In this document: positions 6,858 to 50,856 of the stretch, piece by piece | Layout: every line of letters starts with the position of its first letter | Position numbering within the stretch: the stretch's first letter is position 1 | Assembly: GCA_951394045.1 (NCBI GenBank) | Contig: OX595998.1 | Span: 310,001 to 374,000, forward strand | Direction of reading: 5' to 3' | Source of the DNA: Nitzschia sp. DOCU1 | Taxonomy: Eukaryota; Bacillariophyta; Bacillariophyceae; Bacillariales; Bacillariaceae | DNA length: 64,000 bases | Notes under the pieces: model-generated | Told to the model about the DNA's origin: nothing | Databases searched by the model: none | What the model saw: only the letters and a program-made list of their open reading frames with translations | Program-made: the position numbers and the translations under genes

Positions 6858-7523
6858 ATAGTCTAGTCCAAAGATCCAGACGATGATGTAAACTAGTAGT
6901 AAAATATCAAATCGATTTTCCAAACTAATCATGCCTCTCAAGCTAGCTACCGGTAACTATTGTAGTTGGACGATGGAATACTCGTAGTAGCTGAGCGCAT
7001 CGCGAACAACCAAACAAATCGAAGGAATCGTGACTGGTCGTCGTCCGTACGTCGCTCGTAGGAGTCATTTTGGATGTGGTCATTTTTGGCGCTACATTTA
7101 TTGTGTCACAGTCATGTCTGTAACGCATGCATCTAAGAAAATTTCGGCGGGCGAACCTGTGCGCGCCAATAAATAAATATGGATTTTGAAAACCTTTCAA
7201 ACGAAAGCGGCGAAGAAAGCAAAAGAATGAAGCCCCCCGATTGCGTGATGTCGTCTCGCGATTGTTATTCCACGTGCAGTCAAGCACGCACGAAAGCCCC
7301 AAAACGACAATAGATCACGAAACAGGCACCTCTATTATGCTCTCGGTAGAGCAATAGAATCTTCCTGCAGCTGTTGTTATTGTTGTTGCAGTCCCCATCC
7401 TTCCTTGCACATTGCGCAGCTGACTGGTAGCTAGCTAGCTAGTCTATACTACTTGTGGTGTCTTTGTAGCCGCATAAGGGATTCCGTTGCTTCTTCTTTT
7501 GCAGATTCACACATTAGCACAAC
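6858..7523. other. intergenic region upstream of the giant IQ gene
   Basis: 666 bp with no coding region I can support. It contains a CACGTG (G-box-like) hexamer near 7271, a near copy of the CTACCGGTAG palindrome at about 6947 and TTGTTATTG runs near 7375. It presumably holds the promoter of the downstream gene; no TATA element is clear. Confidence 0.5.
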
Positions 7524-13500: not shown

Positions 13501-16500
13501 AAGGCAAGTCTGCTAGCGAAATCCAATATCTCGACGAAGACCTTTCGGATGTTTACAGGCAAAGAGAAGCTGCACGTCAGAAGGCCATCGCAGAGGGCAA
13601 GTCTGCTAGCGAACTTGAATATCTCGATGAAGATCTGTCTGATGTTTACAAGCAACGAGAGGCTGCGCGAAAGTCGAGTATTGGAATTGCCAACAACCCT
13701 TTCAAACAGCGGGACGTTGCACGGTCTGCCGTGAAAGCTGCTGTAAAAGGGGCCGTGGATCACGGCAATGAAAACAGTCAAATTGAGTACCTGGGTGATG
13801 ACCTTTCTGGTGTTTACAAGAAAAAACCTTCGCTTGCTGCGATGGTCAACTATTATGGTTTCTCGAAGCAGCATGCGTCGGCCGTGACAGTCGTTGAAAA
13901 ACAACCTGCGAATTCATCCACTGGCGTCAACCCGAAAGCCGTGCCGATCGTCAGTAAGCCTTGGCTCATGAAACCTTCCAACAATAGTATGTTGAACACA
14001 CTCAAGTGGATGGACCAGCGCGGGGTGAACTTGGAAAATCCAACGGGTCCTTTCAACCAAGAATCTGATGAGCCTATTGAAGCCGATGAGTCCAGCGAGG
14101 AGGAGGAACAAGAAGAGGAAGAAACAGAAGTCGTAGCAGAACCATTGAAGAAACAGGATTTGACAAAAACAATGTCTTGGTTGATGAGTCACGGCTTTGT
14201 GAAGAAGACCCAGACGACTCCCATGAAAGATTCCGTTCCCGAACAATCCATGGAGTCGCTACCAGAAGGAGATGAAACTGAAAATGTAGCCGTTGAAGAA
14301 GAGACAGAACTGCTCAAGGGCCCTCCAAAGTCGAACGACATGTTTGGAGCTCTTGACTGGCTACATCAGCATGGTTTTGGAGCCAACAAAAGTGTCGCAG
14401 CTGCGGGTGGGTCGGCGCCAGAAGACGAGGCACCAAAGAAGGGGTCGGTTCCTGCTGGACCAACGGCCGAGGACGATGCCAAACTTTACGACTCCAAAAT
14501 CCTTCATTCCTTGTCCTGGCTGCAATCGCATGGCTTCCTTCTGGACAAGCCTGAAGGTCCCAAAGCGGACGGAGAACATGGCATACAGGCGGCAAATCAG
14601 GTCCAAGCTGCCCCTTCGGTAGATTCTATGATGGACGCACTTGATGAACTGGACAAAGAAGAAAGTGACGACGAGGATGTTGCGTCGCCAGACCAACTCC
14701 TAGTCAGACGAAGTAAGAAACCGTACAAAAAGAAGTCTTCGGTCGTTGAAATGGAAAATGCTTTGAATTGGCTCAAGTCCCGTGGCATCGCGGCGCCAAA
14801 GAAAAAGAAGTCAACCAAGAAGAAAAAGACCAAGTCCAAGAAAAGCAAGAACGCAGGGGACGCCGAAGAAGAACCGGACGTGAAAACGCAAAGCCGCCGC
14901 TCGTCAAAGAGTTCTCTCGTCGACGGAGGAGAGCACGATGCGAGTGTTGCCTCCAAAACGAAAAGAGGCGTCAGCTCGGCTGAGATGTCCAGCGCTCTGA
15001 ATTTCTTGGTAAAGAAGGGAATTGCAGTTCCCAAGGCTGCCGTGAGCAAGACATCGCACAAACCAAATAAATCATCGACGAAAAAGAGGAGCGATAAGGA
15101 TGTTTCAGCCAGTGACGCAGAAGCTCTTCTAAAGGAACTGAAGTCGGAGGATGCTGCAGCCACTTCAGGTCCAAATGCACCCGGAGTCCAAGAGACGGAA
15201 CTGGCCCTCAAATTTCTCAAGCTTCGAGAAACGAAGCAGAAAGCCAAGCCGTCAAAGGCTCCGTCGGTGGACGGCGTAGCTAGGGCCCTAAGCTTTCTCG
15301 GGAAACATTCGAAACCTCAACTGTCGAAACCGACAACCTCCAGTCCTGTACCATCACCAGCGACACCATCTGCTATCAAGGAACCGGAAAGCCCAACTAA
15401 ACAAAAGACAGACATATCCGAGTTCATGACGAAGTTTCACCAACGCGCTCAAGCTAAAGCGGCGGCCGCAGCAGGGATGGGTACAGGAGCAACAGCTCGG
15501 AACGACGACCAGGTCATTGCTGAGTTGGCCAGCGAGAGCGGCCGTCTGGAAACGGTTCCCACACCTCGAGCCGATGACCCTACAATGAAAAGCCCCACGA
15601 AGAAGAAAATAGACATTTCCAACTTCATGTCGCAATTCGACAAAAAAGCGAAGGCGGCTGCCCAAGCCTCCACGACGGAAAACGACGAGCCCGACACAGT
15701 ATCGCAGAGCAAGCCACCGGCAGATGACGGGCCGACCAAACGTACAAAAGGAAGAGTCGCGAAAGAAAAGAGGGTCGTTGAGAAGGGGCCGGAATCAGAT
15801 TCCGAATCAGAAGCTGTTACGGAAGACCAAAACGTTGATGGATCCAGTTCGAGCGATGGGCATAAGTCGCCGACGCGAGCTCAACCAAATACTGCAACAA
15901 CGAGCCCAATGAAGAAGAAAATAGACATCGGCGCCTTCATGTCACAATTCGATAAGAAGGCCAAGGCTGCCGCTACTGCTGCAGAGGGTTCGAAGGGCCT
16001 GGAAGGGTCCAAGTCAGACGATGCAAACGATGGACCGGCCAAGAAAACTAGAGGGAGAGTGTCCATCCAGAAACATGCTGGCGAAGGCCCCCAGGAAACA
16101 CAGGAATCGGTGTCTGACATGAATAAGGGTCTCAATTGGCTTAGTTCAAAGACATTCAAATCGCCCAAAGGGAAAACGCCTGGACGGGCCTCCATGACAT
16201 CGGCTTCAAACTCTTTCTCTCGAATTCCTTTGGATCTGAGCGATGATGACGATTCCTCCAATGACGATCCTATCAGTCAGCCGCTAACGCCAAGGGGGTC
16301 GAAGAAGAGCAAAAAATCAAAGAAGCCCAAGTCCAAGTCTTCTGAAGCAGTGGAAAAGGATGGGTCTCTTGCCCGCGACAAGTCGAAATCTCCAAAGTCC
16401 GGCAGGGCAAAGAAAGCATCCGATGACGATTTGATACGCAAGACCGCTGCGCTCCCGCTTTCTGAAGAAGTCGAAAAGGATAGTAGGAAGTCGAAATCTC

Positions 16501-35639: not shown

Positions 35640-38600
35640 CTATTGTAATTTGGCCTCGCTCTTTTTCTTTTTTGGCTTGGAGAAGGCATCGGCACCCCCG
35701 TCGTCCTTTTTCTTCTTCTTGCTGGTCTTTTTAGCTTTGTCAACTCCATCTTCACTGCTGCCGCTCTTTTTGGCACTACTGCCACTCGACAATTTGGACG
35801 TTTTGGATGATTTAGACTCGGTGTCACCCTCCTTTTCCTTCTTTTTAACCTTCTTTTTGGCCTTGGATTCTTCTACTCCTTTACCCTTGCCGACAGAAGG
35901 CGGCGCCGCTTCCTCGTCATCATTCGAAGGCTTTTGAAACGTAATTTTGCGGGACGACTTCTTGTCGCCCGAAGTAGACTTGGTGTTTGTGCTGTCCTTG
36001 GTACTTTTGCTTGCAATTGAGGCTGCCGGGGTTGGTGATGCACCCGGCGAACCCTTGGCCCACCACTTCTTTTTGAGTGTCGGATTGCCATTATTGGAAG
36101 AACGGTTGGGGGATGCTGTCATGGACTTGAGAGGAGACTTTGGATCCGGCGCTACAAAAGTCCTTGACTTTGCTGCAGGGGTGGCACTCTCTTCCGATGA
36201 CGCGCTTGAATCTTCCTCTTCGAGATCGTCTGGAATGGGCGGGGGGCGTTTTGAAAGTGCCACATCCATTGTCGGAAGCGCACGAAACGAAAACTTAAAT
36301 TTGGAGCTGTGGGGAGTTTCAGGTTCAGGTTCAAGTTCTTCCAAAACAATCACGTTCTTGTGGCGAATTCCATGGTCTCGGAGCGTCTTTTTATCACTCA
36401 ATACTACGCCTTGGTAGGAAAGACGTTGCTGGTCTTTGGGGATGGATTTAAGTATCAAAATTTCATGTTTCAACTTGGACAATGCATCGTTTGGATGTAC
36501 ATTCGTAATCTCAAATGGAACTCCTGTTTCATCCATGATGGAAATCCGAAAGTGTTCCAAAGCAATAGTTTCTTCATGGCGAATCTGATAATCGCCCAAG
36601 GTCTTGCCATCATGTAGTTCCTCTCCACCTAGGACTAAGACTTGCTCCTCGCCACAGACATGGCCGATGTCCGTGAGAACCTGCTTGAGCTTTCGAATTG
36701 TAAAATCTCTTTCAACCTCTAAAGAAATGGTGGAACCTTCTGGAACATCAATAAAGACACGCATCGGTTCCAGTTGAAGCGTTGCTCTCTGTCCGATTCC
36801 TTGTGTCTCAAAATTGGCATCTTCGAGCAGGGGCTTTCCTTGAAATGACAAGTGTTGACATTCAATCGGGATGGATCGTTCTTTGAGAATCCTTTCTCGC
36901 AAATCATCCACATATTCCGTCGGATCCGACTCAACGACAAACTTGTCACGACCGTTCCAATGCTTGATGATTAAGTGCAGCTTTGGCTTGTCATCTTTAC
37001 CAGACGCAGCCATTAGATTCGCCATGAATGAAATCTTGCGACGAGGCGCTTGGCGATCTGACTCATCGGGAGCTTCTTCCAAGATGAGAATCGCCCGGTG
37101 GCCAATGCCTTCATCTTCCAACGTTTTGTTTTTTGCAAGTTGTTTCCCTTGGTAGGAAAGACGCTGCTTCGATTTGGGCACGTGTCGCAACCGTAGAATC
37201 TCGGCATGAACTGTTTCGACGGTGTCGTCGGGCAGAATTTCCGACAGTTGAAAAACGTCACCTTGCCAGTGCATGACAGATACAATGAATTCTTCCATGG
37301 TCATTTCATCCAAATGTTCTACTCCGCATTCCTCCAGGGTCTTGGAATCTATCATCTCCTCGCCTCCAAACATGATTCTTTGAACATTGACCGAAACGCC
37401 GGTATCTCGAAGGATTTTCTTTTTCAAGGCGCGAATTGTATCATCCAATTCTACTTTCAACGATAATGTTTTACCAGATGGAGTTTTCACTTTGATTCGC
37501 ATGGGTTCCAGAACTAGCGTCGCGCCGGTACCGATTCCCTGATCTCGCAAGGGCTCCGTATCACTTACTTCTTTTCCCTGGAATGTCATTCTTTGTTGGC
37601 CAATCGGAATCTTGGTGTTGGCGAAAATCGTTTCCTTGACATCATCGATGTAGTCAGCTTGCTCCGCTTTGATTTCATAAACGTCTCCATTCCAGTGTTG
37701 AACCAACAATTCGATACTCGAGGCCAAGAGGGCGGCATGGAGAGGGCCGTCTCCAAAGGCCATGACCTTGTCCGAGTCGGGAATGGCAATCGACTTCTCG
37801 CGGTTGCCTTCCAAAACCAAGACAGAATTATTTTGGACTAGTTGCTGCCGCAAAGTTCGTTTGGCATCCATACGCTTTCCGTTGAACGAGATGGTTTCTC
37901 TAGTCAAGCGAATATCTTGTGTTCTTGCGATTCGTTCCTTCAATTGATCCACCGTTTCCCCCAGCGGCACGCCGTCTAGAACAAATCGATCTCCATTCCA
38001 GTGAAGTATGGTTAGTTGGACCAAGCCGGAATCCAAAGTTTCATCGTTATCGAAGAAGAAGATGCGTTTTTTCCAATCCGGCAACACCGGCCAGATCTCG
38101 GACTCGTCAGACTTAAATTTCTGGGTCTTGAAGGTTTTGCTGGGAACCATCTTTTCACTTTCGGGAAGGGCCAGGTCGATATCCGCTGGGTCTTCCAATA
38201 CCAGCGCAGATCGGTGCCGGATTTTTTGATCCTCAAGGGTCTCTTCATTGCTCACAAAAACGCCATCAAATTTGAGGCGCTGCAAATATGTTGGCAAATC
38301 GGTTTCTTCCTCAATTTTCGCCTTGAGGTCACCGCCTGTGCTCGACGGTTTCAGCCTTCGAATCGCTATGGAATCACCATACCAATTCATGACAGAGACC
38401 TTAAAGAGTTCCATGGAGAGTTTATCGCCGTGTTTTACGCCACACTCGGACAGAGTTTGTTGGTCAGTAAATTCGATAGAACCCGACATGATGCACTGGA
38501 CATCGACAGGGGTCTTAGTCATTTTGAAAACCATTTTCTTCAAAGTGGCGATTGCATCGCCAAGGTTAACCACCAAGGACAGCTCAGATCCGCCGGGATC

Positions 38601-41600
38601 CGTCACGGTTATCTGCATGGGCTCCAAGACCAGCACGGAAAATGGAATGATGCCGAGTTCCTTGAGAGTAGCATCTTCTCGTACAGGCTCCCCGTTAAAT
38701 GAAAGAAATTGCTGGTCGTCCGTGATTTTGAATTTCTTGGATATCTTTCCTTTGACGTCCCCAATGTATTCCGACGTCTCCACGTCAAGCGTGATCGTTT
38801 GGCCGTCCCAGTGTTTTACCCGTATTTGCATGGTGCGGACCTCCAACTGAACGCCAGCCTCAAAACCTTGCTTTACGAGAGGTTTATCCTCGTCCAAATC
38901 TTGAAAATTGTCCAGAAAGAACTGTCTAGCTGCCTTCTTGGCCTTGGGCTCTGATATTTGTTCCTCGACGACCCTATCAATATCTTTCATGGTCGTAGTG
39001 GGCAACAATTCTACCTTGATCCTTTTCATACCGGGAACTTCGATTTGGACACTTGGTGGTTCCACGCTAAGTACAGTCCCTTGGCGAATTTCCGGGTCGG
39101 CATCCAAAAAGACTTCCTCCTCGTCAACATCGTCAAAATCCAAGTCTCCCATCGTGAAGCCTCCAACGAACAGGCCTGTCTTTTCTCGCAATTTCTTTTT
39201 GACTTCTTTAACCGTCTCCTCTGGGTCAATAACAAGGACAAACAATCTACCCTCGCGGCTTCTAAAGGTCACTTCGGAAGCATTCGTTTCAAGAGGACGG
39301 AGCTTTGTCACTGACCCTTCTTTCAGTTCCGTCTTGGAAAATTGCACCTCTTCATCCAATTCATTGCCTCCTGCATCCATGAAGAAGACCCGGGCCGTAC
39401 TTCCTTTAGCCAGGCCAACTTGTTCCTCGATCATTTCCTTGACGTCTGCAATCGTCTGTGTCGGCAACACGGCGAGTTTGAATTTCTCTTTTTTGGGTTC
39501 CTGTACTTCAAGTTCGGATGGGTCATCAGGATCAATAAAGAGGACAAAGGACCTACCACCAGCTTTAAATGGGATTTCAATTTTTTGGGGCTCTCGCAGC
39601 TCGAAGGTTTCCCCAAGCTTAAAGCCGCTTTCAGCGATATAAGTGTCATCATCCAACTCAGGGCCTTGGCGATCCAGAAAGAAAATCCTTTGTTTTGCCT
39701 TTGGCTTCCCGGTCTTTTCTTGGATGTTATCCTTCAAGTCTCCAATAGTGTGACAAGGCAGAATCGACAAACGAATGCGATCTTCATTGAGCAGAGCAAT
39801 TTCCACGGCCTTTGGATCTACAGTCAGGACGTCCCCCTTGGAGACACGCGACAGATCAAAGTCCTCGTCGATTTCTTCGCCGTCGGGTAGACACACGCGC
39901 AAATCTTTAGCTGGCACACCAGTGATTCGTGACAACTCGGATTTGAGATGTTCTGGTTTGTCGGGATCAATAATGAGATTCCATGACCTGCCACCTGGGC
40001 CTCGAACCTCGATTTCAGGCTTTTCGGGGGGTCGGAGCTGAAGTGCCGTGCCGTTCTTGATGCCCGCCTTGAAAACAGGGGCATTGTCATCCAAGGGTTG
40101 ATCTCCGTCGAAGAAGAAGACACGATTTCGAGCTTGGGGGGATCCGGTCGCCTCTGCCACCATGTCCTTCAAATCGGAAACAGTATGCTGGGGCATGAGC
40201 TTGAAGAGCTGTTTCTTGCCTCCAGCCAACTCCACCTCGCATTTCGGTGGATCCAAGAAAAATGTTCTTCCAGGCCGCGGGCGTTCCAAATCAGGCAATT
40301 CAATTCCATCCTCATCCACCAATCGCAAATGTTGAATAGGAAAACCACTTGGTTTGACAAGCTTCCTTTTAATATCCTGGACGGTGTCATCTGGGTCAAT
40401 GATCAATGTAAAGTTTCGTGAGTGAAGGCCCTCCGGAATCTCGACCTTTACTTCCGATGGCACGGCGCATAATCGAGTGCCGTGCGCTACGCTCGTTTGG
40501 AAGATTGGAGTGTCGTCGCCTACAAGCTCGTCGTCTTGGTCCATGAAAAATATTCGCGTTTTGTGCCTCGGTATTCCACTTTCTTCGGCAATCTTCGATT
40601 TTATGTCACCAATGGTATCCCCAGGCTTGATTGGCACAGTGATATGCCGCCCGTCACATTCCACGTCCAATTTCGGCAAATCCAAACGAAAACATCTTCC
40701 AGGCCGCGGGCGTTCCAAATCTGGTGCCTCAATGCCTTCATCGTCCAGCAAGCGAATGTGCTTGAGGGGAATCCCACTGGTTTTCACAAGTTTTTTCTTG
40801 ATATCTCCCAGGGTGTCGTCCGGGTCAATCACCAGCGTAAAGCTCCTTCCATTGGGGCCGTCAAAGGGAAAGTCAATGGTAACTTCGGGTGGGCCTCGAA
40901 CTTGCAACTGTGTTCCATGCCCAAGACGGGTCTGGAAGATAGGCGTGTCATCGCCCTCCAACTCATTCTCGGTATCCATAAAAAAGACTCGGCTCTTCCC
41001 CATTGGCACTGCTTCAGCTATTCGGTCTTTGACATCCCTTACGGTATCCCCGGGCTTGATTGGTACAGTAATATGCCGCCCGTCAAATTCCACGTCCAAT
41101 TTTGGCAAATCCAAATGAAAAGATCTTCCAGGCCGCGGGCGTTCCAAATCTGGTGCCTCAATGCCTTCATCGTCCACTAAGCGAATGTGACGCATAGGAA
41201 ATCCACTCGGCTTGGCAATTTTCCGTTTGATATCTTGAATTGTATCGTCCGGATCAATCACCAGCGTAAAGCTCCTTCCATTGGGGCCGTCAAAGGGCAA
41301 GTCAATGGTAACTTCCGGTGCTTCTCGAAACACCAAGGGCGTTCCATGTTCCAGGAGCGTATTAGACACTGGTGTTTCATCACTTGGCAATTCCTTGTCG
41401 TCGTCCATAACAAAGCAACGTGTCTTGTGCAGTGGAATCCCGGTCTCGTCGGCTATTCGATCCAACAGGTCTTTTATCGTATCCTTGGGCAAGATGTCGA
41501 CATGTTGGGGATCGTTTCCTGGAACTTGAACTACAACGTGCGGTGATGCAATTTGATAAGTCTGGCCTTTTTTGGGTTTTTCGTCATCGTCTGGCTCGTC

Positions 41601-43808
41601 ACCTTTGTCGTCAACGAGCCTTAATTGTCGGATCGGAATACCGGTTGGTTTGGACGCTTTGCGTTTGATATCTTGAATAGTATCCTCAGGGTCGATAAGA
41701 AGGTGAAAATCGCGACCTGTGGGTGGCCGAATCGAGAGTTGGCCGGGATCAGGCATGTCTTGAATGGAGTAAGTTGCGCCGGGAACAGGTATCGTCGAGT
41801 CGTCCAACGGTTCCCCCGTATCATCATTGACCAGCTGAAATTTCCGCGGCGGCCGATTAATCTTTTTAGCAACTTGGTCCTTGAACGATGGAAAATCAAA
41901 CTTTTCAGGATCGACTCGGAGTGGAAACTTTTTCCCCTTTGGTGGTTGGACATGGACATTGCCTGGCTTGGATAGTGGCTTGGGTGGAGACGCCGCCTTC
42001 GAAGGTGGCGGCTGCACAACGATTGGCTCGTCGTCAGGTAGTTGATCCAACGGCATGTTTTTGTCCATTGGTGCGTTGCGCTGCCACAATTGTTCTAAGT
42101 CCGGTGGATCAGGCAATCCGTTGGCCTGTTGAATGTAGTTTGGCAAGGTTGACACAGGATCACAAGGGTTCGTATCAATAGGAAATTTTTCGCCGTTTGG
42201 AAATTCGATCACGATTTGTTTGGCTTCCAAATGCAAGATTGATTTGTGCTTGACGTTGGAATCCCCCAACGTTTTTGAATTCTTGACCGGCTTCTTCTTG
42301 AAGGTCAAGGTTTGGGATTTGACGGGAATTTTTCGAAGTTGATATATTTGTTGTTTGACATTCAACATTTTATGGGACGGCACTACCTGAAGTTGAAATT
42401 TGTCATTATCCCAATCTTGAACAATAAAGATAATCATTTGCTCGTTGCTTGGGGGAGGTGATGGTGAAGCGATTGATTTTGACTTTTTGGCTGGAGGCGG
42501 CTTGCCTTGTTCGCTATCATCTCGCATCGTCAGGGTGTCCAAATGTTTCACTCCACATTGCTGTAAGGTTGCCTTATCGTCTTTTAGTTCGTTCGCATGA
42601 AAAAAGAGTCGTTGTTCGGCAACCGGTATGCGAATTCGGTTCTTAACCTTTGTCTTGACTGAAAGAATCGTATCCTCAGGTTCTACTTCCAACTCGACTG
42701 TTGGTCCCTCCAACGGTTCCACAAAAATAACCATACGCGCCAAATCCAGTACATCCCGATGCTTAACTTTGTATTTCGAAATCGTTGCCGAATCGTCACT
42801 CATGGGCAATCGTTTGAAAAAGAGACGCATTTCTTCGACTGACATTGCGACATTCGGTCCAGCCATTTTCTTCACGTCTACAACCAATTCATCAGGATCC
42901 ACCTCAAATTTGAATTTTTTGCCCTTGTGTGTGCGCACAAAGATCTCCATGGGACCTAGATCAATAGTGTCCCCATTCCGAATCCCCGATCCAACGACAG
43001 TCTTGACGTCTTGTAACGGCGTCCCTTCAAAGGAGAGTCGTTGATCGTCGATTGGAATTCCCTTTTCTTTTAGAACCTGTTCTTTGCAGTACGAAATTTT
43101 GTTTCCCGGGATGACTTTTATTGGAAAGACTACACCCTTGACAGTTCGTACATTAACGGTCCATTTTCCGGCCGAATCCCCCGCCGCATCCTTTTTTGAT
43201 TTTTTGCCTCTGGAAATTTCGTCATTATGACCCAGTATTTTCCATGCTCCGCCCACGCTATGCTTTTCAGCCCGTCCGATTTGACCTGAAACTTTTAGAA
43301 ATCCGGCTGTGCCATCATCCAAGGCTGACATATCCCGTTTGAGCACGGGATGAATCCATAAACCCTGCAAGGTGACATCGGACGGAACTTTACCCCCGGG
43401 GGGAATGATGACGAGATCTTTCGGCTGGGGTGGTTTCCTCGGACGCAACATAGCGCCTCCCTTTAACATTTTCATTTCCACAGACGAAGTCAATCCCCAG
43501 GCCCCTTGTAAAGGATTATTTCGTAAAACGCATTCTTCGACCTCCTTTTCGTCGTCGTCGTAGAACAACCACAATTCGGCAACTTCCTTGGTGCGCTTGA
43601 ACTTATCCAACTGATACTTGGCCGACCACACCGCGCATTGTTCTTTGGATGAATCAAAGTCGCCGCAATCATGAGGATGCACCCACACACTCCACTTGTG
43701 CTCGGGAATATACATGGTCGAACGCAGCGCACCGACTTCGAAGTCATTAGCATCGACGACTCCCCTCCCCACGCCGCTAGTACCCGTAGTCGAACGCTTT
43801 TTCGACAT
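35640..43808 (-). CDS. giant protein of about 30 tandem divergent ubiquitin-like domains (2722 aa)
   Basis: Single 8.2-kb frame, ATG at 43808. Residues 1-215 are a unique N-terminal region (HKWSVWVHPHDCGD, LWLFYDDDE, NPLQGAWGL). Residues ~215-2495 divide into about 30 units of ~70-76 residues with the ubiquitin-like pattern: beta strand (MxIxV), xGxxxxLxV, D/E-x-T-I-x-D-(V/L)-K-x-K-(I/L), GIPxxxQRLxFxGxxL, D-x-x-T-L-x-x-x-G-(I/V)-x-x-G-x-x-L-x-L. Units are back to back with little linker, as in polyubiquitin, but highly diverged from each other. None ends in the Gly-Gly needed for conjugation, so it should act as a fixed multi-UBL scaffold and not be processed to modifiers. The tail (~2500-2722) is disordered, Ser/Lys-rich, with lysine runs near the end (KKKKKDD) that could be nuclear signals. 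Possible partners are proteasome, Cdc48/p97 or UBL-binding adaptors; this is inference. Confidence 0.85.
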   Translation of the reverse strand: MSKKRSTTGTSGVGRGVVDANDFEVGALRSTMYIPEHKWSVWVHPHDCGDFDSSKEQCAVWSAKYQLDKFKRTKEVAELWLFYDDDEKEVEECVLRNNPLQGAWGLTSSVEMKMLKGGAMLRPRKPPQPKDLVIIPPGGKVPSDVTLQGLWIHPVLKRDMSALDDGTAGFLKVSGQIGRAEKHSVGGAWKILGHNDEISRGKKSKKDAAGDSAGKWTVNVRTVKGVVFPIKVIPGNKISYCKEQVLKEKGIPIDDQRLSFEGTPLQDVKTVVGSGIRNGDTIDLGPMEIFVRTHKGKKFKFEVDPDELVVDVKKMAGPNVAMSVEEMRLFFKRLPMSDDSATISKYKVKHRDVLDLARMVIFVEPLEGPTVELEVEPEDTILSVKTKVKNRIRIPVAEQRLFFHANELKDDKATLQQCGVKHLDTLTMRDDSEQGKPPPAKKSKSIASPSPPPSNEQMIIFIVQDWDNDKFQLQVVPSHKMLNVKQQIYQLRKIPVKSQTLTFKKKPVKNSKTLGDSNVKHKSILHLEAKQIVIEFPNGEKFPIDTNPCDPVSTLPNYIQQANGLPDPPDLEQLWQRNAPMDKNMPLDQLPDDEPIVVQPPPSKAASPPKPLSKPGNVHVQPPKGKKFPLRVDPEKFDFPSFKDQVAKKINRPPRKFQLVNDDTGEPLDDSTIPVPGATYSIQDMPDPGQLSIRPPTGRDFHLLIDPEDTIQDIKRKASKPTGIPIRQLRLVDDKGDEPDDDEKPKKGQTYQIASPHVVVQVPGNDPQHVDILPKDTIKDLLDRIADETGIPLHKTRCFVMDDDKELPSDETPVSNTLLEHGTPLVFREAPEVTIDLPFDGPNGRSFTLVIDPDDTIQDIKRKIAKPSGFPMRHIRLVDDEGIEAPDLERPRPGRSFHLDLPKLDVEFDGRHITVPIKPGDTVRDVKDRIAEAVPMGKSRVFFMDTENELEGDDTPIFQTRLGHGTQLQVRGPPEVTIDFPFDGPNGRSFTLVIDPDDTLGDIKKKLVKTSGIPLKHIRLLDDEGIEAPDLERPRPGRCFRLDLPKLDVECDGRHITVPIKPGDTIGDIKSKIAEESGIPRHKTRIFFMDQDDELVGDDTPIFQTSVAHGTRLCAVPSEVKVEIPEGLHSRNFTLIIDPDDTVQDIKRKLVKPSGFPIQHLRLVDEDGIELPDLERPRPGRTFFLDPPKCEVELAGGKKQLFKLMPQHTVSDLKDMVAEATGSPQARNRVFFFDGDQPLDDNAPVFKAGIKNGTALQLRPPEKPEIEVRGPGGRSWNLIIDPDKPEHLKSELSRITGVPAKDLRVCLPDGEEIDEDFDLSRVSKGDVLTVDPKAVEIALLNEDRIRLSILPCHTIGDLKDNIQEKTGKPKAKQRIFFLDRQGPELDDDTYIAESGFKLGETFELREPQKIEIPFKAGGRSFVLFIDPDDPSELEVQEPKKEKFKLAVLPTQTIADVKEMIEEQVGLAKGSTARVFFMDAGGNELDEEVQFSKTELKEGSVTKLRPLETNASEVTFRSREGRLFVLVIDPEETVKEVKKKLREKTGLFVGGFTMGDLDFDDVDEEEVFLDADPEIRQGTVLSVEPPSVQIEVPGMKRIKVELLPTTTMKDIDRVVEEQISEPKAKKAARQFFLDNFQDLDEDKPLVKQGFEAGVQLEVRTMQIRVKHWDGQTITLDVETSEYIGDVKGKISKKFKITDDQQFLSFNGEPVREDATLKELGIIPFSVLVLEPMQITVTDPGGSELSLVVNLGDAIATLKKMVFKMTKTPVDVQCIMSGSIEFTDQQTLSECGVKHGDKLSMELFKVSVMNWYGDSIAIRRLKPSSTGGDLKAKIEEETDLPTYLQRLKFDGVFVSNEETLEDQKIRHRSALVLEDPADIDLALPESEKMVPSKTFKTQKFKSDESEIWPVLPDWKKRIFFFDNDETLDSGLVQLTILHWNGDRFVLDGVPLGETVDQLKERIARTQDIRLTRETISFNGKRMDAKRTLRQQLVQNNSVLVLEGNREKSIAIPDSDKVMAFGDGPLHAALLASSIELLVQHWNGDVYEIKAEQADYIDDVKETIFANTKIPIGQQRMTFQGKEVSDTEPLRDQGIGTGATLVLEPMRIKVKTPSGKTLSLKVELDDTIRALKKKILRDTGVSVNVQRIMFGGEEMIDSKTLEECGVEHLDEMTMEEFIVSVMHWQGDVFQLSEILPDDTVETVHAEILRLRHVPKSKQRLSYQGKQLAKNKTLEDEGIGHRAILILEEAPDESDRQAPRRKISFMANLMAASGKDDKPKLHLIIKHWNGRDKFVVESDPTEYVDDLRERILKERSIPIECQHLSFQGKPLLEDANFETQGIGQRATLQLEPMRVFIDVPEGSTISLEVERDFTIRKLKQVLTDIGHVCGEEQVLVLGGEELHDGKTLGDYQIRHEETIALEHFRISIMDETGVPFEITNVHPNDALSKLKHEILILKSIPKDQQRLSYQGVVLSDKKTLRDHGIRHKNVIVLEELEPEPETPHSSKFKFSFRALPTMDVALSKRPPPIPDDLEEEDSSASSEESATPAAKSRTFVAPDPKSPLKSMTASPNRSSNNGNPTLKKKWWAKGSPGASPTPAASIASKSTKDSTNTKSTSGDKKSSRKITFQKPSNDDEEAAPPSVGKGKGVEESKAKKKVKKKEKEGDTESKSSKTSKLSSGSSAKKSGSSEDGVDKAKKTSKKKKKDDGGADAFSKPKKKKSEAKLQ
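36330..43165 (-). repeat. tandem ubiquitin-like array arranged as dyads then triads
   Basis: Protein-level repeats within the 2722-residue gene. Central units alternate between an A type (GRSFTLVIDPDDT, RLVDDEGIEAPDLERPRPGR) and a B type (GRHITVPIKPGDT, RxFFMDxxxEL, DDTPIFQT), about 142 residues per dyad. Near the C-terminus the order becomes a three-unit cycle: HWNGD-type, MRIKV-type, then VMHWQGD-type. It occurs three times, with one extra HWNGD unit. Confidence 0.8.
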
Positions 43809-44283: not shown

Positions 44284-47200
44284 TCATGCCTGCTTTGCTT
44301 CTGGCAACAACAGTTTGTGCGCCAGGGCTTTCACACGCTGGCGCTTTTCTTCTCGTTCCTCGAACGTCAAGCGAGTCGACTTGGAGTAGCCATCATGCGC
44401 GGCCTGATGCCCACCGTCCTGTCGCAGCTCCTCAGAAACCTGCATCGGCGAAGAATCCGGTAGTTCATGACCCTGAGAAGTTCTTTGCCCCATTGCGCTT
44501 CTAGCGGCCTCCTCCGCTCGTTCTCGTGCGTCTTGCTCTCGAGCAAGCGTCTGATCAAGACCTGAGATGAGATTTTGTGCGTTCTCCTCGGCCATAGACT
44601 GTTTTTGATCTTCCGAAGCCCGACGATAATCCTCATTGTCGAACTGTACCCGTGCTTGGTCTTCTGCTTGCTGTCGGAGCAGATATTCATGTTCGAGTCT
44701 TATTTCTTCGTCCTGGGACTGTTGGATGGCCTCTTCCTCGGCATTGGCCTGAGCCCGCGCTTCGGATTCCAAGCGAGCTGGTTCGTCGTCAGCTTTCATG
44801 CGGGCTTCTACCTCCGCTTCGCCGGGTCCAACCTGCGTCAGATCGGCGTATTCTGACTCGTTGCCCTCGTCTTCTGACTTCTTGGGTAATTCGAGAAACG
44901 AGAAAGCTTCCAACGCCTGCTCCGGCGCAGCGGGCTGATCCGATTCGGTGTTTTGCTGGCTGCCTGACACTGCCTCAGGAAGCGATTCGGCTACGGGAGT
45001 TTGAGATTTGTCTTCTATCACAGGCGAGCGAAGAGGGTCAGACTGTTCTTCCAGTGCAAACTCGTCGTCCGAGCCACTTTGATCAGTTATTGAGCTCATT
45101 TTGGCGTCGACAATCTTTCTTTGACTGGAGAGGGAAACGTCGATGTCATCGCTCAATTCTTCGCCCAAACCTTCTCTTAACAATCGCATTTGTTTTTCTT
45201 TTTCTTCCTCCAAAGAGAGACCCATATTCGGTATTGATCTCGAAAAAGATTCGCGTAGCTTCGTCAACAAATTAGGCATGCTGCCACCCGTATTTTTCCT
45301 AGAATCGGCGTCCATCTTTAGAGACACCATATCCAACTCTTCGTAGTCTTCCATCTTCTGCACAACGTCAACGCTACTCAAAGCAGATTCAGAGTTGTTT
45401 GGGGCTTCATCTGCAAGATTTGGCGCCGTAAGATGGGCCTTCGCTTGCCGAATGAGCAACTCTTGTGTAGCCGCTTGAACGTCCATCACATCATCAAGAT
45501 CGATGTCCATCTCTTTCAATTTATCCCTGATCAAATTCTTGGTAGCGTCTCGCTCCAAATCCAATGTCTTGTGCAGCGTATTCGGGGAAAATATGGCTTC
45601 CGACAATAATTTAAGCATATCTGCAGACTTTCCTGCGTCAGGTCCACCAGAAGTCTTGCCTTGACTACTGTCTACTGAAGCATCAATTGATCTCGTTTGG
45701 CGCAACGAGCTTTCAACGGCCTGTTTCAATAGCCGTTGTTGCGTTTCCCCTTGGTATACGAGGGCCTCCTCCAAATCAGGATCCATCTCCCGCATCTTCT
45801 CTCGGAGAATTCGCTTCTTTTCTTCTTTCTCTGTATCTAAAGATGACTTGGGTGTACTTTGGCCGAAGAACAAGTTCGAAAAACTCCGTACGCCACTATT
45901 AACCTTGGAGGTTGATTGCTTAGACTGAGCTCCAACTGAAGACGGGCTTACGTTTTCAGTTGCTTTTTCGCTCGCAACCGTGCCGGATGGGACGTCACCG
46001 ACGTCGAATTCGCCTTTTGGGGTCTGGGGGGCTAGGTTTGACGGCGACGAAGTTAGAGTGGTGGTAATCTTGGAATCCTCCAGTACTCCTCCGCACAGAG
46101 CAGGAGAGTTGTTGGTGGGTGCTTCTAGCTTCCTTTGGTCTTTAGTTTTGATGATTTCTCCAATCTTAGTCATTGTCGCGGGCGACAGAATCGAGTTTGA
46201 AAGATAAGCAAGGAGTGATGCCTTGTCAGGAGCGAGTGGTGTCTGGCCGCTGGTGGCTTCATCTGAAGCAGATATATTGCCTGGGCTAGGCAAGGTGGGG
46301 GCATTTTCTTCTTTAGTGTCAGTGAGTTTGCCACGTTGAGGCTCTCCGCTCGGTCCAACCATTTCATTGCTTGATTTTGACGATGGAATTGCGGTTGAGT
46401 CCCCTAAAAGACTGGGTTCTGCCAACTTTTCAGTGGGAGACATGACGCCAGATGGGTCTGTACTTTCAACTGTAGACGGGGCGGTCTCCAGCGTTTTACC
46501 TTGGATGGTGTCATCCTGTTGGGCGCACGCATCATTAGGTTCATTATTGTCGTTTTTCTCGGAATCTTGGCCCGTGGACGAGTTATCGTTCTTCATTTTC
46601 TCCTTTGCACGGGCTTTCAAGGCAGCCAATGCTTCAAAAGGCGCTGGGCCCTTTGGGCCGTCAAAGAGCTCGCCACTACCTATCGAATCACCATCATTGT
46701 CATGTTCCAAGATCGGCTGATGTAATTTGGCCAGGTGGTCGCCCTTGGACGGATCCCCGCCCTTCAGACGCGACTTCTCTGCGGCCTCAGCTTGTTCACG
46801 GGCCTTGATTGCAGCGGCCAAAAGAGGCTTATCTGGTGGTGGCCCCCTAGGAGCATCGAACAACGAACCTAAACCTAAGGAATCGTCGTCGCTCAACGTT
46901 GATTCGATCGGTTGATTAAGTTTGGCCAGATGATCGCCCTTAGTCGGATCGCGACTTTGCTTCGCCTCTGCCTTTTCCCGCGCCCTGATAGCTGCTGCCA
47001 AAAGCGGCTTCTCTGGAGGTGCACCCTTGGGAGTGTCAAAGAGCTGCCCGAAACCCAAAGAGTCGTCGTCGCTAAGATAACCCGAAAGGGGCTGGTTCAG
47101 GTTTGCAAGGTGGAGCCCTTTCGTAGCGGTAGTATTTGTGGCACCAGCATCATCCAGGCAGGTTGGATCTTCCTCTCGTGATTCGTCAAGGTCGGCGTTT

Positions 47201-50200
47201 CCCCCACTCGCCAATGAATCGTCCTCTTCGGCTCCATCAAGTTCGTCCAAAGGGACCAATTCGGATTCTACTACCACAACCTCCTCTAATGCTGGGGGCG
47301 GCCCGGAGTCTACTTTCAGTTTCGCATCTGCCTCTGCCTTTTCCCGGGCTTTGATAGCTGCTGCCAAAAGCGGCTTCTCTGGAGGTGCACCCTTGGGAGT
47401 GTCAAAGAGCTGCCCGAAACCCAAAGAGTCGTCGTCGCTAAGATAACCCGAAAGGGGCTGGTTCAGGTTTGCAAGGTGGAGCCCTTTCGTAGCGGTAGTA
47501 TTTGTGGCACCAGCATCATCCAGGCAGGTTGGATCTTCCTCTCGTGATTCGTCAAGGTCGGCGTTTCCCCCACTCGCCAATGAATCGTCCTCTTGGGCGC
47601 CATCGACTTCGTCCAACGGGGCCAATTCTGACTCTACTACCACAACCTCCTCTAATGCTGGGGGCGGCCCGGAGTCTACTTTCAGTTTCGCATCTGCCTC
47701 TGCCTTTTCCCTGGCTTTGATAGCTGCTGCCAATAGTGGCTTCTCTGGAGGTGCACCCTTGGGAGTGTCAAAGAGCTGTCCGAAACCCAAAGAGTCGTCG
47801 TCGCTAAGATAACCCGAAAGGGGCTGGTTCAGGTTTACAAGGTGGAGACCCGTGGCGGTAGAAGCTTCGGTCATTTCCGCGGATTCTTGGCGAGTGTCCT
47901 CGCGATGCGATTCGGAGTCATCCTTAATAATACCGTCACTCTCATCTGATTTTCCTGAAATTGCATCCAAATCATTATTTTCGTCTAGAACCACTGAGAC
48001 GATTTCGTTCTCTTGAGCGAAGGTTGGTTCGTCTTCGGAAGGCTCGTCTTTCACAGCTTGGAGCCCCGCTGCCTCGGTCACGGCAGCCTTCTCTTCAACT
48101 TCGGCGGTTTCACCCTGGGCTTGAGATACATTCTGAGTATCAGCGGCCTCCACTGTAGCTATCATACTAGCAGCAGGTGCAACGACCTCTTGTTCAACGT
48201 GGACGATAGCTGTAGTCTCCGGTTCCGCCTGGACTATGACCACCTCGGCAGCCGCTTGGTCGGGTTGCATTTGAGCTGCATCAGCTGCATCCTGTTTGGT
48301 TTTGATACGGGCGGCCTCTTGGTCTTCTTGCATCTGAGTCGCTTCAGCGGCCGCCTGTTCCGCTTTGATAACTGTAGCCTCCTGTTCCAATAGAACGATG
48401 GCCGCCTCGGCAGGCACTTCTTCAGATTGCATCTTAGCTGCTTCAGCAGCATCTTGCTGGGCTTCTTGCTCGGCCTGAATTTGAGCTGCGTCTGCGGCAT
48501 CCGGTTCGGCCTCTTTCAAACGGGCGGCCTCCTGCTCAGATTGGACTCTGAACGCCTCGGCCGACTCTTGACCTAATTGCACCTGATATGCTGCAGCATC
48601 CTGCTCGGCTTCGATACGGGCAGCCACATGTTGCACCACCTCGGCCGCTTCTTGCTCCGCTTGTATTTGAGCTGCTTCAGCGGCCGCCGGCTCCGCTTTG
48701 ATATGGGCAGCCTCCTGTTCCGCTTGGACTCTGACCGCCTTGGCAGCTTCTTGCTCGGTTTGCATTTGAACTAATTTAGCGGCCGCCTGTTCCGCTTGCG
48801 CCCTGACCGCCTCGGCAGCGTCTTGCTCGGCTTGTATTTGAGCTGCTTCGGCGGCCACCTGTTCCGCTTGCACTCTGGCCGCCTCGGCAGGCTCTTCTGC
48901 GGCATCCTGTTCGGCCATGAAACTGGCGGTCTCCTGTTCCGCTTTGACGCGGGCAGCCACCTGTTCCGCTTGCACTCTGGCCGCTTCGGCTTGAATTTGA
49001 GCTGCTTCTGTGGCCACCCGTTCCGCTTGGACTCTGGCCGCCTCGGCAGCTTCTCGCTCGGCTTTGATGCGGGCAGCCTCCTGTTCCACTTGGACCCTGG
49101 CTGCCTCGGCAGCGTCTTGGTCGGCTTGCTTTTGAGCTGCTTCAGCAGCCGCCTGTTCTGCTTTGATACGGGGAGCCTCCTGTGTTTCTTCATTTTGTTT
49201 CTCGGCTTCCGACGATGCAGCCGCTGCTGTTCTTGGCTGGGAAGTGGATGACGATTCCACACCGTCCTCCTCTTGTTCCAAATCCAAAGTAGCAGTGATA
49301 GGCATGGCTTTTTTGGCCGCTCCTGGTGATGGTGATTTGGGTATCCAACTTTTGCGGGGTGATTTTGACGGAGACCCCAACCATTCGTCGGGCCTGGTGG
49401 AAGCATCCTTGGCCCATTTGGCTCCCGTTTGTTTGCTGGCGCGACGTGGACTGACTGGCGCATGCTCTAGGGATCCTGGTAAAAAATCGGATGGTCGTTC
49501 CTTGGCAGCTTCATTACTGGCCAGTGTCGCCTTGAAAAAATCTACGTTCTGATCAGTGGGAGGTGGTGCTGGTACTGGGGCTTCTACTACTTTGGTTTCG
49601 TCGGGACTTGTCGTCGTCGTAGTACTGGTGGGTTCGTCCCTCACCGCCGGTACGGCTTCGGTTGCTTGTTGTTTGGCGGCTTCTGCCGCTTGTTCATTAG
49701 CCACGGTTTCTCGTGCCTTTTGAGCGTTCCTTTTGAGAACAGCCATGTACATGGGGTTGATATCTTGCGCCGACTTTACTGGAGTTTTGGGAGAACCGAG
49801 TTCTGTCTCCTGACTTCGTCTCTTCAATATTTTGCTTCGATCGTAGACGGTAGAAGAAGAAGAAGATGATGACTGTTTTTCGGGCGTCAATAGTGACGAC
49901 GCTGCTGAATGGACGGCGGGCACTTTTTTGGAGGGCAGTGCGTAAACTCGCGACTTTGTTTCCTCGTGTTGTTCAGTGAGTTGTTCAACCAGCTTTGTGA
50001 AATCCTCCCTCGGCAGTTGCTCCAGATCCTTGACTATGCGTTGTTTGTCGCATCTCCAGCCGTAGCGCAGCCAGAAGTCTTTGGAAGAAACCTGATCAGG
50101 CACCAGAAAGTCGTGGTACGTTTTGACGACCGGGAACTGCCTCAAGATGTCCGCTTGCTTGGATTCGTCCCAGTGCTTTTTGAAATCAAAGAGGTAGTCG

Positions 50201-50373
50201 CTGAGTTGCGCCGCCTTTTCCTTGGAGAGTTGCGCGGGAAGAGGCATGTCTTGCAGATAGGTTTCCTTCTTGGATTGAAGCTCGTGCAATTCCTTGTTAG
50301 CGACGGTTTTCAACTGCGACCAAACATGAAGCCATTTGTTTTTCGGGTTACTACCGCTGCCGGTGGAAGACAT
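44284..50373 (-). CDS. BSD-domain protein with Ala/Glu/Gln coiled coil and duplicated acidic blocks (2029 aa)
   Basis: Single 6.1-kb frame, ATG at 50373. The N-terminus (~65-115) matches the BSD fold: LFDFKKHWDESKQ, VKTYHDFLVPDQVS, then the hallmark DFWLRYGWR. BSD domains occur in TFIIH p62, synapse-associated SYAP1 and DOS2-like proteins. With no other p62 features, a SYAP1/DOS2-like membrane-trafficking or signalling role is the closer parallel. Residues ~390-720 are an Ala/Glu/Gln-rich array (AEAARVQAEQEAARIKAE) predicted to be a long helix or coiled coil. Residues ~830-1200 hold three or more copies of LNQPLSGYLSDDDSLGFGQ with LFDTPKGAPPEKPLLAAAIKA. Later, FSNLFFGQS, EEKKRILREKMREMDPDLEEAL and similar REKLKEMDxDLDD helices recur three times. 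The C-terminus is again Glu/Ala-rich coiled coil. Overall this looks like an elongated scaffold; function unknown. Confidence 0.82.
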   Translation of the reverse strand: MSSTGSGSNPKNKWLHVWSQLKTVANKELHELQSKKETYLQDMPLPAQLSKEKAAQLSDYLFDFKKHWDESKQADILRQFPVVKTYHDFLVPDQVSSKDFWLRYGWRCDKQRIVKDLEQLPREDFTKLVEQLTEQHEETKSRVYALPSKKVPAVHSAASSLLTPEKQSSSSSSSTVYDRSKILKRRSQETELGSPKTPVKSAQDINPMYMAVLKRNAQKARETVANEQAAEAAKQQATEAVPAVRDEPTSTTTTTSPDETKVVEAPVPAPPPTDQNVDFFKATLASNEAAKERPSDFLPGSLEHAPVSPRRASKQTGAKWAKDASTRPDEWLGSPSKSPRKSWIPKSPSPGAAKKAMPITATLDLEQEEDGVESSSTSQPRTAAAASSEAEKQNEETQEAPRIKAEQAAAEAAQKQADQDAAEAARVQVEQEAARIKAEREAAEAARVQAERVATEAAQIQAEAARVQAEQVAARVKAEQETASFMAEQDAAEEPAEAARVQAEQVAAEAAQIQAEQDAAEAVRAQAEQAAAKLVQMQTEQEAAKAVRVQAEQEAAHIKAEPAAAEAAQIQAEQEAAEVVQHVAARIEAEQDAAAYQVQLGQESAEAFRVQSEQEAARLKEAEPDAADAAQIQAEQEAQQDAAEAAKMQSEEVPAEAAIVLLEQEATVIKAEQAAAEATQMQEDQEAARIKTKQDAADAAQMQPDQAAAEVVIVQAEPETTAIVHVEQEVVAPAASMIATVEAADTQNVSQAQGETAEVEEKAAVTEAAGLQAVKDEPSEDEPTFAQENEIVSVVLDENNDLDAISGKSDESDGIIKDDSESHREDTRQESAEMTEASTATGLHLVNLNQPLSGYLSDDDSLGFGQLFDTPKGAPPEKPLLAAAIKAREKAEADAKLKVDSGPPPALEEVVVVESELAPLDEVDGAQEDDSLASGGNADLDESREEDPTCLDDAGATNTTATKGLHLANLNQPLSGYLSDDDSLGFGQLFDTPKGAPPEKPLLAAAIKAREKAEADAKLKVDSGPPPALEEVVVVESELVPLDELDGAEEDDSLASGGNADLDESREEDPTCLDDAGATNTTATKGLHLANLNQPLSGYLSDDDSLGFGQLFDTPKGAPPEKPLLAAAIRAREKAEAKQSRDPTKGDHLAKLNQPIESTLSDDDSLGLGSLFDAPRGPPPDKPLLAAAIKAREQAEAAEKSRLKGGDPSKGDHLAKLHQPILEHDNDGDSIGSGELFDGPKGPAPFEALAALKARAKEKMKNDNSSTGQDSEKNDNNEPNDACAQQDDTIQGKTLETAPSTVESTDPSGVMSPTEKLAEPSLLGDSTAIPSSKSSNEMVGPSGEPQRGKLTDTKEENAPTLPSPGNISASDEATSGQTPLAPDKASLLAYLSNSILSPATMTKIGEIIKTKDQRKLEAPTNNSPALCGGVLEDSKITTTLTSSPSNLAPQTPKGEFDVGDVPSGTVASEKATENVSPSSVGAQSKQSTSKVNSGVRSFSNLFFGQSTPKSSLDTEKEEKKRILREKMREMDPDLEEALVYQGETQQRLLKQAVESSLRQTRSIDASVDSSQGKTSGGPDAGKSADMLKLLSEAIFSPNTLHKTLDLERDATKNLIRDKLKEMDIDLDDVMDVQAATQELLIRQAKAHLTAPNLADEAPNNSESALSSVDVVQKMEDYEELDMVSLKMDADSRKNTGGSMPNLLTKLRESFSRSIPNMGLSLEEEKEKQMRLLREGLGEELSDDIDVSLSSQRKIVDAKMSSITDQSGSDDEFALEEQSDPLRSPVIEDKSQTPVAESLPEAVSGSQQNTESDQPAAPEQALEAFSFLELPKKSEDEGNESEYADLTQVGPGEAEVEARMKADDEPARLESEARAQANAEEEAIQQSQDEEIRLEHEYLLRQQAEDQARVQFDNEDYRRASEDQKQSMAEENAQNLISGLDQTLAREQDARERAEEAARSAMGQRTSQGHELPDSSPMQVSEELRQDGGHQAAHDGYSKSTRLTFEEREEKRQRVKALAHKLLLPEAKQA
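46985..47860 (-). repeat. 366-bp tandem repeats in the BSD protein gene
   Basis: Two nearly identical 366-bp copies (122 codons) start at equivalent points 47136 and 47502; a third copy begins around 46985 but is truncated. They encode SDDDSLGFGQLFDTPKGAPP and a conserved acidic linker. Differences are a handful of bases, so the duplication is recent. Confidence 0.85.
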
Positions 50374-50856
50374 GATGATTGACAGGGTAGTGGTCCATTA
50401 GATGCCATACCACGCTACCACAAATGTAACTTTCACATGTCCAGGCCTCTGGCTCATGGTCATCGGACTGCATGGTTTTTGGATCTTGACACGCTCGTTT
50501 TTCGGCGAAGTAGGGACGAAGAATGACCGAATGTTCGACTCATAGGACTAATGCCTTTGTGACGAAGAAAGGAAGTGGTGGTATCATGGTAGCATTCACG
50601 TTCCTTGGTTCTGCGTTGCTGGCTTTGGGACCTGTTGTGTAGAGAGAGAGTAAGGAGTAGAAGCTATGGTAGGAATACTGGCAGAATGATATGGCTATCA
50701 TTACTATGGTACTGCTTTCTCTCTTATAGTTGGTGGCTCTAGATAGTAGTATGGTTGTCGTTCTCGTTCTCGTTACAGCAGCACCAGTACTTGTAGTTTG
50801 CTTTTTTTTTGGCAGAAACGTTGCTGTTTCCTTGTGGTAACTTCCACACAACAAGT
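50374..50856. other. intergenic region upstream of the BSD gene
   Basis: 483 bp combining the promoter of the minus-strand BSD gene and the 3' flank of the FKBP gene. There are TCGTTCTCGTTCTCGTT-type short repeats near 50755. No gene seen. Confidence 0.5.

Follow-up and report, generated by a model that had tools for sequence, protein, structure and literature searches.

A diatom gene encoding 29 ubiquitin-like units in tandem appears to belong to a little-noticed family of giant proteins

What kind of protein is specified by a diatom reading frame in which some thirty ubiquitin-like (UBL) units follow one another, and how far is it still connected with ubiquitin signalling? The gene lies on contig C14 of the 52-Mb, 63-contig genome of Nitzschia sp. 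DOCU1, and is called C14 here. It occupies positions 35640..43808 of the minus strand in the window (the whole 64,000-nucleotide stretch analysed) and forms one uninterrupted ATG-to-stop open reading frame (ORF) of 2,722 aa plus stop, free of internal stops, in agreement with the single gene proposed in the initial annotation. Given a stop frequency of about 5% per codon, a random frame would reach this length with a chance of about 1e-61. Eight other ORFs of the window, compared with Pfam, gave BSD and IQ matches only. The BSD domain is found in the neighbouring 2,037-aa stop-to-stop frame (44284-50397, minus strand), which also contains a 366-bp tandem repeat (46964-47847; 2.4 copies, 96%); the IQ motif is found in a 3,435-aa open frame (7518-17825, plus strand) with about 13 copies of a 93-bp repeat inside it (12480-13666).

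The Pfam ubiquitin family (PF00240) matches the C14 protein with an E-value of 2.6e-219 over 24 stretches. An iterated hidden Markov model (HMM), grown in four rounds from the genome's own ubiquitin unit, detects 29 UBL units of 20.6-70.6 bits between residues 216 and 2490 (2,275 aa), and since this model was partly trained on C14 units, some circularity attaches to the five units beyond Pfam's 24. These figures bear out the earlier estimate of about 2280 residues and 30 units. Shuffled versions of the protein (200 shuffled by single residues and 200 by five-residue blocks, 400 in all) gave no domain above 15 bits, the maximum being 12.4. Abutting units recur every 66-76 residues in the middle of the protein and every 71-72 residues in the N-terminal block and in the C-terminal ABC triplets described below; in polyubiquitin the period is 76. 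Gaps between units measure one residue in 15 of 28 cases, six or fewer in 22, and 22-57 residues in six. The units are diverged, with a mean pairwise identity of 26.4% and a highest value of 82%, and a DNA-level tandem repeat search (score of at least 80) found no array in the gene. Across the C14 units the fold core is hydrophobic in 371 of 377 cells, compared with 362 of 1,350 for the surface (two homologues, P0048 and P0049, were omitted from the sets used for such counting).

AF2 models of two segments together span 17 of the 29 units. In the first segment all four units show a ubiquitin-type fold (pLDDT 88-96 in ten-residue blocks), and a structure search with this model returned a clear ubiquitin fold for unit 4. 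The second model is shallow (6 sequences) and of lower confidence; 13 alpha1 helices are seen in it for 13 units, with pLDDT of 50-70 in much of units 15-19. The pTM values of the two segments, 0.42 and 0.31, leave the domain arrangement undefined by the models. Within the modelled units, the protein is predicted to be built of ubiquitin-fold (beta-grasp UBL) domains, which is what the initial annotation expected structure prediction to reveal.

A row of ubiquitin folds in one ORF recalls polyubiquitin, and the same genome contains true ubiquitin genes, namely a polyubiquitin gene on C15 (L032) and fusions at C7, at C3:583 kb and on C10. The C15 polyubiquitin consists of identical 76-aa units joined head to tail, each ending in Gly-Gly. 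The C14 units, in contrast, are neither near-identical nor 76 residues long throughout, averaging 26% identity and lying mostly 71-72 aa apart, and none of the 29 ends in Gly-Gly, as had been noted from the start; a lone GG near one of the 29 unit ends belongs, by eye, to the hairpin of the next unit. That C14 might be a diverged polyubiquitin precursor cut into monomers is suggested by its tandem ubiquitin-fold units, yet the lack of Gly-Gly ends, the shortened period, the low identity and the presence of a normal polyubiquitin gene make this reading barely credible.

Other ubiquitin ORFs of the genome were also observed. At L034 (G000:C10:1096000-1099000), ORF 1298-2002 fuses a ubiquitin unit to a nickel superoxide dismutase (Sod_Ni, E 8.1e-30). 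At L031 (G000:C3:1871000-1875000), ORF 1372-2532 encodes two ubiquitin units with LRGG ends behind a hydrophobic leader, and in these units K48 and K63 are, by eye, replaced; this ORF resembles diatom plastid (symbiont) ubiquitin. K48 loss in diatoms is mentioned in a passage of PMC5487736.

An uncleaved chain of ubiquitin folds could be a multivalent platform on which ubiquitin receptors and the shuttle factors of the proteasome dock, or a decoy for them, and both the high multiplicity and the clear ubiquitin fold of unit 4 would suit such a role. The surface for it, however, has largely been lost. Position 8 is aliphatic in 3 of 28 C14 units and position 44 in 7 of 29, with no unit of the 29 aliphatic at both; Pro or Trp occupies position 8 in 20 of the 29. 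Of the two lysines, K48 persists in 6 of 29 units, K63 in 2 of 26. These counts concern two positions of the L8-I44-V70 patch, position 70 being outside the HMM and uncounted. Among paralogue units, 0 of 75 are aliphatic at both 8 and 44; the homologues P0002-P0032 offer the platform slightly more, with 10 of 448 units. C14 lacks, at positions 8 and 44, the hydrophobic patch of shuttle-type receptor-binding UBLs, and the loss of this patch makes the docking of ordinary ubiquitin receptors on the C14 protein unlikely. A platform or decoy for such receptors is accordingly given a low probability. Of the non-cleavable UBL rod that the initial annotation put forward as a possible docking platform or filament, the uncleavable rod is supported, by the missing Gly-Gly ends, mostly abutting units and UBL folds wherever modelled, and the docking of ordinary ubiquitin receptors is not supported.

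Known proteins with rows of UBLs resemble C14 only in part. USP7/HAUSP carries five UBLs attached to a deubiquitinase. Its C-terminal array (PDB 2ylm) is, like C14, an uncleaved row of diverged UBLs, and matches the C14 model in Foldseek (E 3.1e-12), but C14 has 29 UBLs and no protease catalytic family in its Pfam output: the USP catalytic (UCH) family is absent among the 22 Pfam families listed for the protein, and USP7_C2 and USP47_C match it, but under their Pfam cut-offs. ISG15 and FAT10 have Gly-Gly ends and are conjugated. Together with OASL they share with C14 tandem UBLs without internal cleavage, and both ISG15 and chicken OASL (7sbi) were Foldseek matches to the C14 model; they have two UBLs, compared with 29, and the C14 protein ends in KSEAKLQ, with no Gly-Gly for conjugation in the manner of UBL modifiers of the ISG15/FAT10 type. 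Bacterial polyUbl proteins likewise hold tandem UBLs in one chain, but only two or three, and are encoded in operons alongside JAB/E1 partners (Iyer et al. 2006, PMC1779556).

The UBL array is preceded by a tryptophan-rich N-terminal domain (43338..43715, minus strand, as are all parts of the gene given below), for which residues 32-157 are ordered in the AF2 model and residues 27-209 are covered by the profile match. The model is beta-rich, with pLDDT of 66-91 in ten-residue blocks. The domain is present in 42 of 49 homologues and also in the paralogues on C9, C11 and C16, and ten of its residues are invariant over 19 aligned rows (V43, W61, W80, G102, G105, P137, G149, W151, P154 and W189). 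As to the alignments, A4 used 9 of 12 pieces, those of P0007, P0009 and P0020 being omitted, and P0008, P0014, P0021 and P0026 are contained in A1 and absent from A2. Sequence comparison of the domain with Pfam and PDB gave no convincing match, and structure searches with the whole model, N-domain and UBLs together, were filled by ubiquitin matches. Three candidates, CBM_25 (E 0.045 in one of nine members), ribosomal L35Ae (0.11 in one of nine members) and uS7 (E 1.2), were considered and found unconvincing.

The array itself can be divided into blocks. Units 1-4 (42225..43163; residues 216-528) make up a conserved N-terminal anchor block. The middle block of units 5-17 (39297..42221; residues 530-1504) differs in unit number among homologues and includes the alternating D/E doublets of units 7-14 (40032..41741; residues 690-1259), some of them recently copied. 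In the 25-residue gap between units 16 and 17 lies an apparent remnant of a D-type unit, reduced, as read from the sequence, to the first hairpin (39519..39593; residues 1406-1430). Units 18-19 (38835..39278; residues 1511-1658) are in-order reciprocal best hits in P0002, P0003, P0004 and P0005. The C-terminal part then begins with triplet T0 of abutting A, B and C units (units 20-22; 38193..38831; residues 1660-1872; AF2 pLDDT about 76-88), followed by a linker of 57 aa (38022..38192; residues 1873-1929; pLDDT below 50) that contains the conserved motif IWPVLPDWKKRIFFFD (38049-38096), by the X unit (unit 23; 37809..38021; residues 1930-2000), and by the ABC triplets T1 (units 24-26; 37077..37715; residues 2032-2244) and T2 (units 27-29; 36339..36977; residues 2278-2490), which are preceded by linkers of 31 and 33 residues, respectively. 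Because its pLDDT is below 50, which predicts disorder, the IFFFD linker, which resembles strand beta3 of E-type units and had been considered a half-UBL, is regarded as a linear motif. The protein closes with a Lys/Ser-rich tail (35643..36338; residues 2491-2722; 20% Lys), presumed disordered, that includes runs of KKKKK and KKKK.

C14 is not alone in its genome or among diatoms. At least five further multi-UBL genes are found in the same genome, on C4 (24 units), C5 (18), C9 (17), C11 (11) and C16 (5 in the first open frame). The C16 frame (L028, G000:C16:1024000-1028500) breaks within unit 5, and ubiquitin matches resume about 110 bp further on, the interruption being an intron or a break. 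The C11 and C5 paralogues (L027 and L029) share, by eye, a similar C-terminal tail, PEY.V....W...F..K followed by K.VGKR.K, a possible second end motif judging from its sequence. Three protein database searches returned at least 49 homologous proteins (P0002-P0050), a lower bound since in two of the searches scoring was confined to about 8,000 candidates, those with the most words in common; one alignment search loses true members, having missed P0002, P0005 and P0007-P0009. All 49 have at least four UBL units by HMM, and some as many as 31. The latter number belongs to P0007 and P0008, Nitzschia inconspicua entries named 'ubiquitin family protein' (2,822 and 2,818 aa), which have a similar N-domain but are only 25% identical to C14 and lack the motif linker; a functional account of them was looked for and not found. 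P0050 (1,611 aa) combines four UBL units with VWA and SH2 domains. Other homologues are named 'ubiquitin' (N. inconspicua) or hypothetical protein (Bacillariaceae sp.), and among JGI entries 'ubiquitin C' (the source name of the multi-UBL proteins P0016, P0017, P0019 and P0025), 'Ubiquitin family' or 'hypothetical protein'.

The organism names seen among the homologues are N. inconspicua and Bacillariaceae sp. only, and it is not established that the family is diatom-specific. Queries with the single protein, which reach close relatives only, gave one pattern-match stretch in IMG/VR viral contigs and nine in GTDB bacterial and archaeal genomes, none of them confirmed by tblastn. The initial annotation knew of no described protein with this architecture; this holds for publications, with no description found in the open-licence PMC literature, but not for the databases, where the homologues and paralogues above are present. 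The word ubiquitin occurs 0 times in the main text of the N. inconspicua genome paper and 0 times in the Pleurosigma genome paper.

Comparison within this family indicates which parts of the protein are held constant. Eleven C14 units (1-3, 18-21 and 23-26) are in-order reciprocal best hits with P0002 and also with P0003. By percent identity, all 11 are closer to their counterpart in P0002 than to any unit of their own protein; in P0003 nine are closer and two tie. Unit 22 has no reciprocal best hit in this comparison, and units 27-29 have no counterpart because P0002 and P0003 possess one triplet fewer. The motif linker is found in 24 proteins including C14, 19 recognised by pattern and five by a variant motif (RRIFIFD, NRIFIFD, RFFIFD or RTFIFD) in a gap of 55-57 residues; these five, P0039, P0042, P0043, P0045 and P0047, have 7, 4, 7, 4 and 4 units past the linker, respectively. 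C14 itself combines all four features of the C14 type, namely the N-domain (present in 21 of the 24), conserved UBL ends, the motif linker and a number of post-linker units equal to 1+3n. P0007-P0009 have no motif linker and follow the order of end, middle and end only loosely. Lys-rich tails occur in many C14-type homologues, and the tails of P0002, P0003 and P0006 are only 3-5 aa long.

The middle, by contrast, is variable. Among the 14 proteins (C14 and 13 homologues) that have the N-domain and at least four units past the motif, the number of units before it ranges from 12 to 22. The C14 doublets include lineage-specific copies: units 9 and 11 are 82% identical, and units 10 and 12 are 68% identical. 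Units two apart are more alike than adjacent ones in C14 (35 vs 29%), C9 (69 vs 40), C11 (38 vs 32), C5 (68 vs 65) and C4 (68 vs 32), and with this excess in all five genes tested, periodicity in steps of two units is a common trait of the family, if a weak one in C5. Between the first and second of the copied doublets (units 9-10 vs 11-12), dN/dS is 0.19 over 142 codons, which shows the copies to be constrained by purifying selection.

The C-terminal part grows by a different step. Past the linker there are four units in nine proteins, seven in 11 and ten in two, so that 22 of the 24 fit 1+3n, although these proteins are related and the 22 cases cannot be taken as independent. The other two, P0048 and P0049, have two units past the linker, are without a tail and look truncated. 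In a tree built on 47 of 49 triplets, taken from 17 of the 19 pattern-found proteins (the pieces of P0048 and P0049 being omitted by length), T0, T1 and T2 group largely by position. Well-supported branches nevertheless require the T2 label to have changed at least five times, the two later triplets of P0006 group together (98/95), and T2 of C14 is placed away from most T2s, within a group of weak support. Gain, loss or copying of entire triplets has therefore happened repeatedly. Repeat growth of a largely neutral kind, without a function that depends on length or valence, would account for the differing numbers of pre-motif units and for the identical units inside the paralogues C9, C5 and C4; it is less easily reconciled with purifying selection between the doublets, with conserved ends and motif, and with C-terminal growth by triplets only, and it is held to be improbable.

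A further regularity concerns the junctions. In the 24 C14-type proteins, His occurs at position 63 in 194 of 276 units with a tight preceding junction and in 36 of 190 with a loose one; the remaining proteins, own paralogues included, give 157 of 284 and 11 of 79, and C14 alone gives 10 of 15 and 2 of 11. No such association is seen in the five own paralogues taken alone (19 of 68 and 1 of 6). As the units counted are not independent of one another, the conserved His63 is no more than a hint of an inter-domain contact.

The reading preferred here, at a probability of roughly 0.45, is that C14 is an unprocessed chain of 29 UBLs that serves as a spacer and scaffold, cytoplasmic or nuclear, with specific binding ends. 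At one end, the tryptophan-rich N-domain and units 1-4 would bind; at the other, the ABC triplets, the motif-bearing linkers and the Lys-rich tail. The D/E doublets of the middle would set the reach of the chain, the number of ABC triplets would set how many copies of a partner are docked, with the linker motif as a putative docking site, and both reach and valence would evolve by block duplication. A location in cytoplasm or nucleus is suggested by hydropathy, which gives no signal peptide (maximum 0.37 in the first 60 residues) and no membrane stretch (the top 19-residue mean, 1.55, falls inside the UBL array). The chain may be extended and stiff like a rod. A UBL domain is about 3.5-4 nm long, by which the chain would come near 100 nm; against such stiffness, hinges would be expected at the linkers of 22-57 aa.

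A nuclear or nucleic-acid variant of this scaffold is a serious one, in view of the Lys-rich tail and of P0003. The same rod would then serve as a chromatin scaffold in the nucleus or nucleolus, held to nucleic acid through its Lys-rich tail with the KKKKK and KKKK runs and, in the relative P0003, through an N-terminal SAP domain that scores marginally (24.8 bits against a Pfam cut-off of 23.9). Yet P0002 has a sub-threshold SAP-like match only, SAP is absent from the Pfam list of the C14 protein, a Lys-rich tail is no specific mark of a nuclear protein, and an unrelated gene carries a Lys/Ser-rich tail of similar kind; a chromatin scaffold in particular is considered unlikely, if less so than the receptor platform or neutral growth. 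The unrelated gene in question (L035, G000:C4:3609500-3618500) has unrelated repeats, and its tail DNA is 70% identical to that of C14 over about 230 bp, as if a tail module were shared by the two, although low complexity may explain part of the likeness.

Participation in patterning of the silica wall would tie C14 to a ubiquitin homologue with affinity for silica that was reported earlier from Navicula pelliculosa. Ubiquitin has been placed along the wall and inside the nanopores of that species (PMC11554505, citing Hazelaar et al. 2003), with a role in valve pore formation (PMC3478156, citing the same work), and an 8.5 kDa diatom wall protein is described as homologous to ubiquitin in a statement of PMC3338455, whose reference number for it does not match Hazelaar et al. 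in the reference list. The host genome has 18 silicon transporter matches, in a search whose control matched one of 14 genomes, under the cut-off, and 'ubiquitin C' as a database name of multi-UBL proteins means that 'ubiquitin' transcripts may include them. An 8.5 kDa homologue, however, is far below the C14 protein of about 300 kDa, and C14 lacks by hydropathy the signal peptide expected of silica-wall proteins of the silaffin/cingulin type. Owing to these two points the silica link is kept as a lead, and a very doubtful one. At G000:C2:4805391-4809131, two of the silicon transporter matches lie each in a 1,274-aa open frame, possibly a tandem or fused transporter gene.

To return to the end-anchored spacer, a wider and more speculative version, rated as a distinctly less probable claim, would place C14 in a titin-like diatom class of giant UBL rods, with at least six genes in this genome. 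Conserved docking ends would enclose an amplifiable spacer; reach would grow in steps of two domains and valence in steps of three, the three-domain blocks being separated by linkers of which one bears a conserved docking motif, and the ubiquitin fold would have become a mechanical brick detached from ubiquitin signalling. Engineered ubiquitin chains are used in force spectroscopy. For ubiquitin the value 230±34 and for K48-linked ubiquitin the value 85±20 are given in a table of PMC2759523; we take both to be unfolding forces in pN, with end-to-end pulling in the former case. From the fold alone, it is suggested that a natural UBL chain joined N to C would be pulled end to end.

On this evidence, C14 seems to belong to a little-noticed family of giant UBL proteins that appear to grow by blocks of two or three domains. 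The familiar multi-UBL proteins have, to our knowledge, two to five UBLs. Diatom genes annotated as 'ubiquitin' in expression studies may in fact be giant multi-UBL genes and not ubiquitin. Growth by blocks, with doublets in the middle and triplets at the end, amounts to a natural experiment in which the gain of length and valence by repeat proteins can be followed. A family with up to 31 UBLs would be nature's equivalent of the engineered ubiquitin chains and an example of the ubiquitin fold in use as a structural brick.
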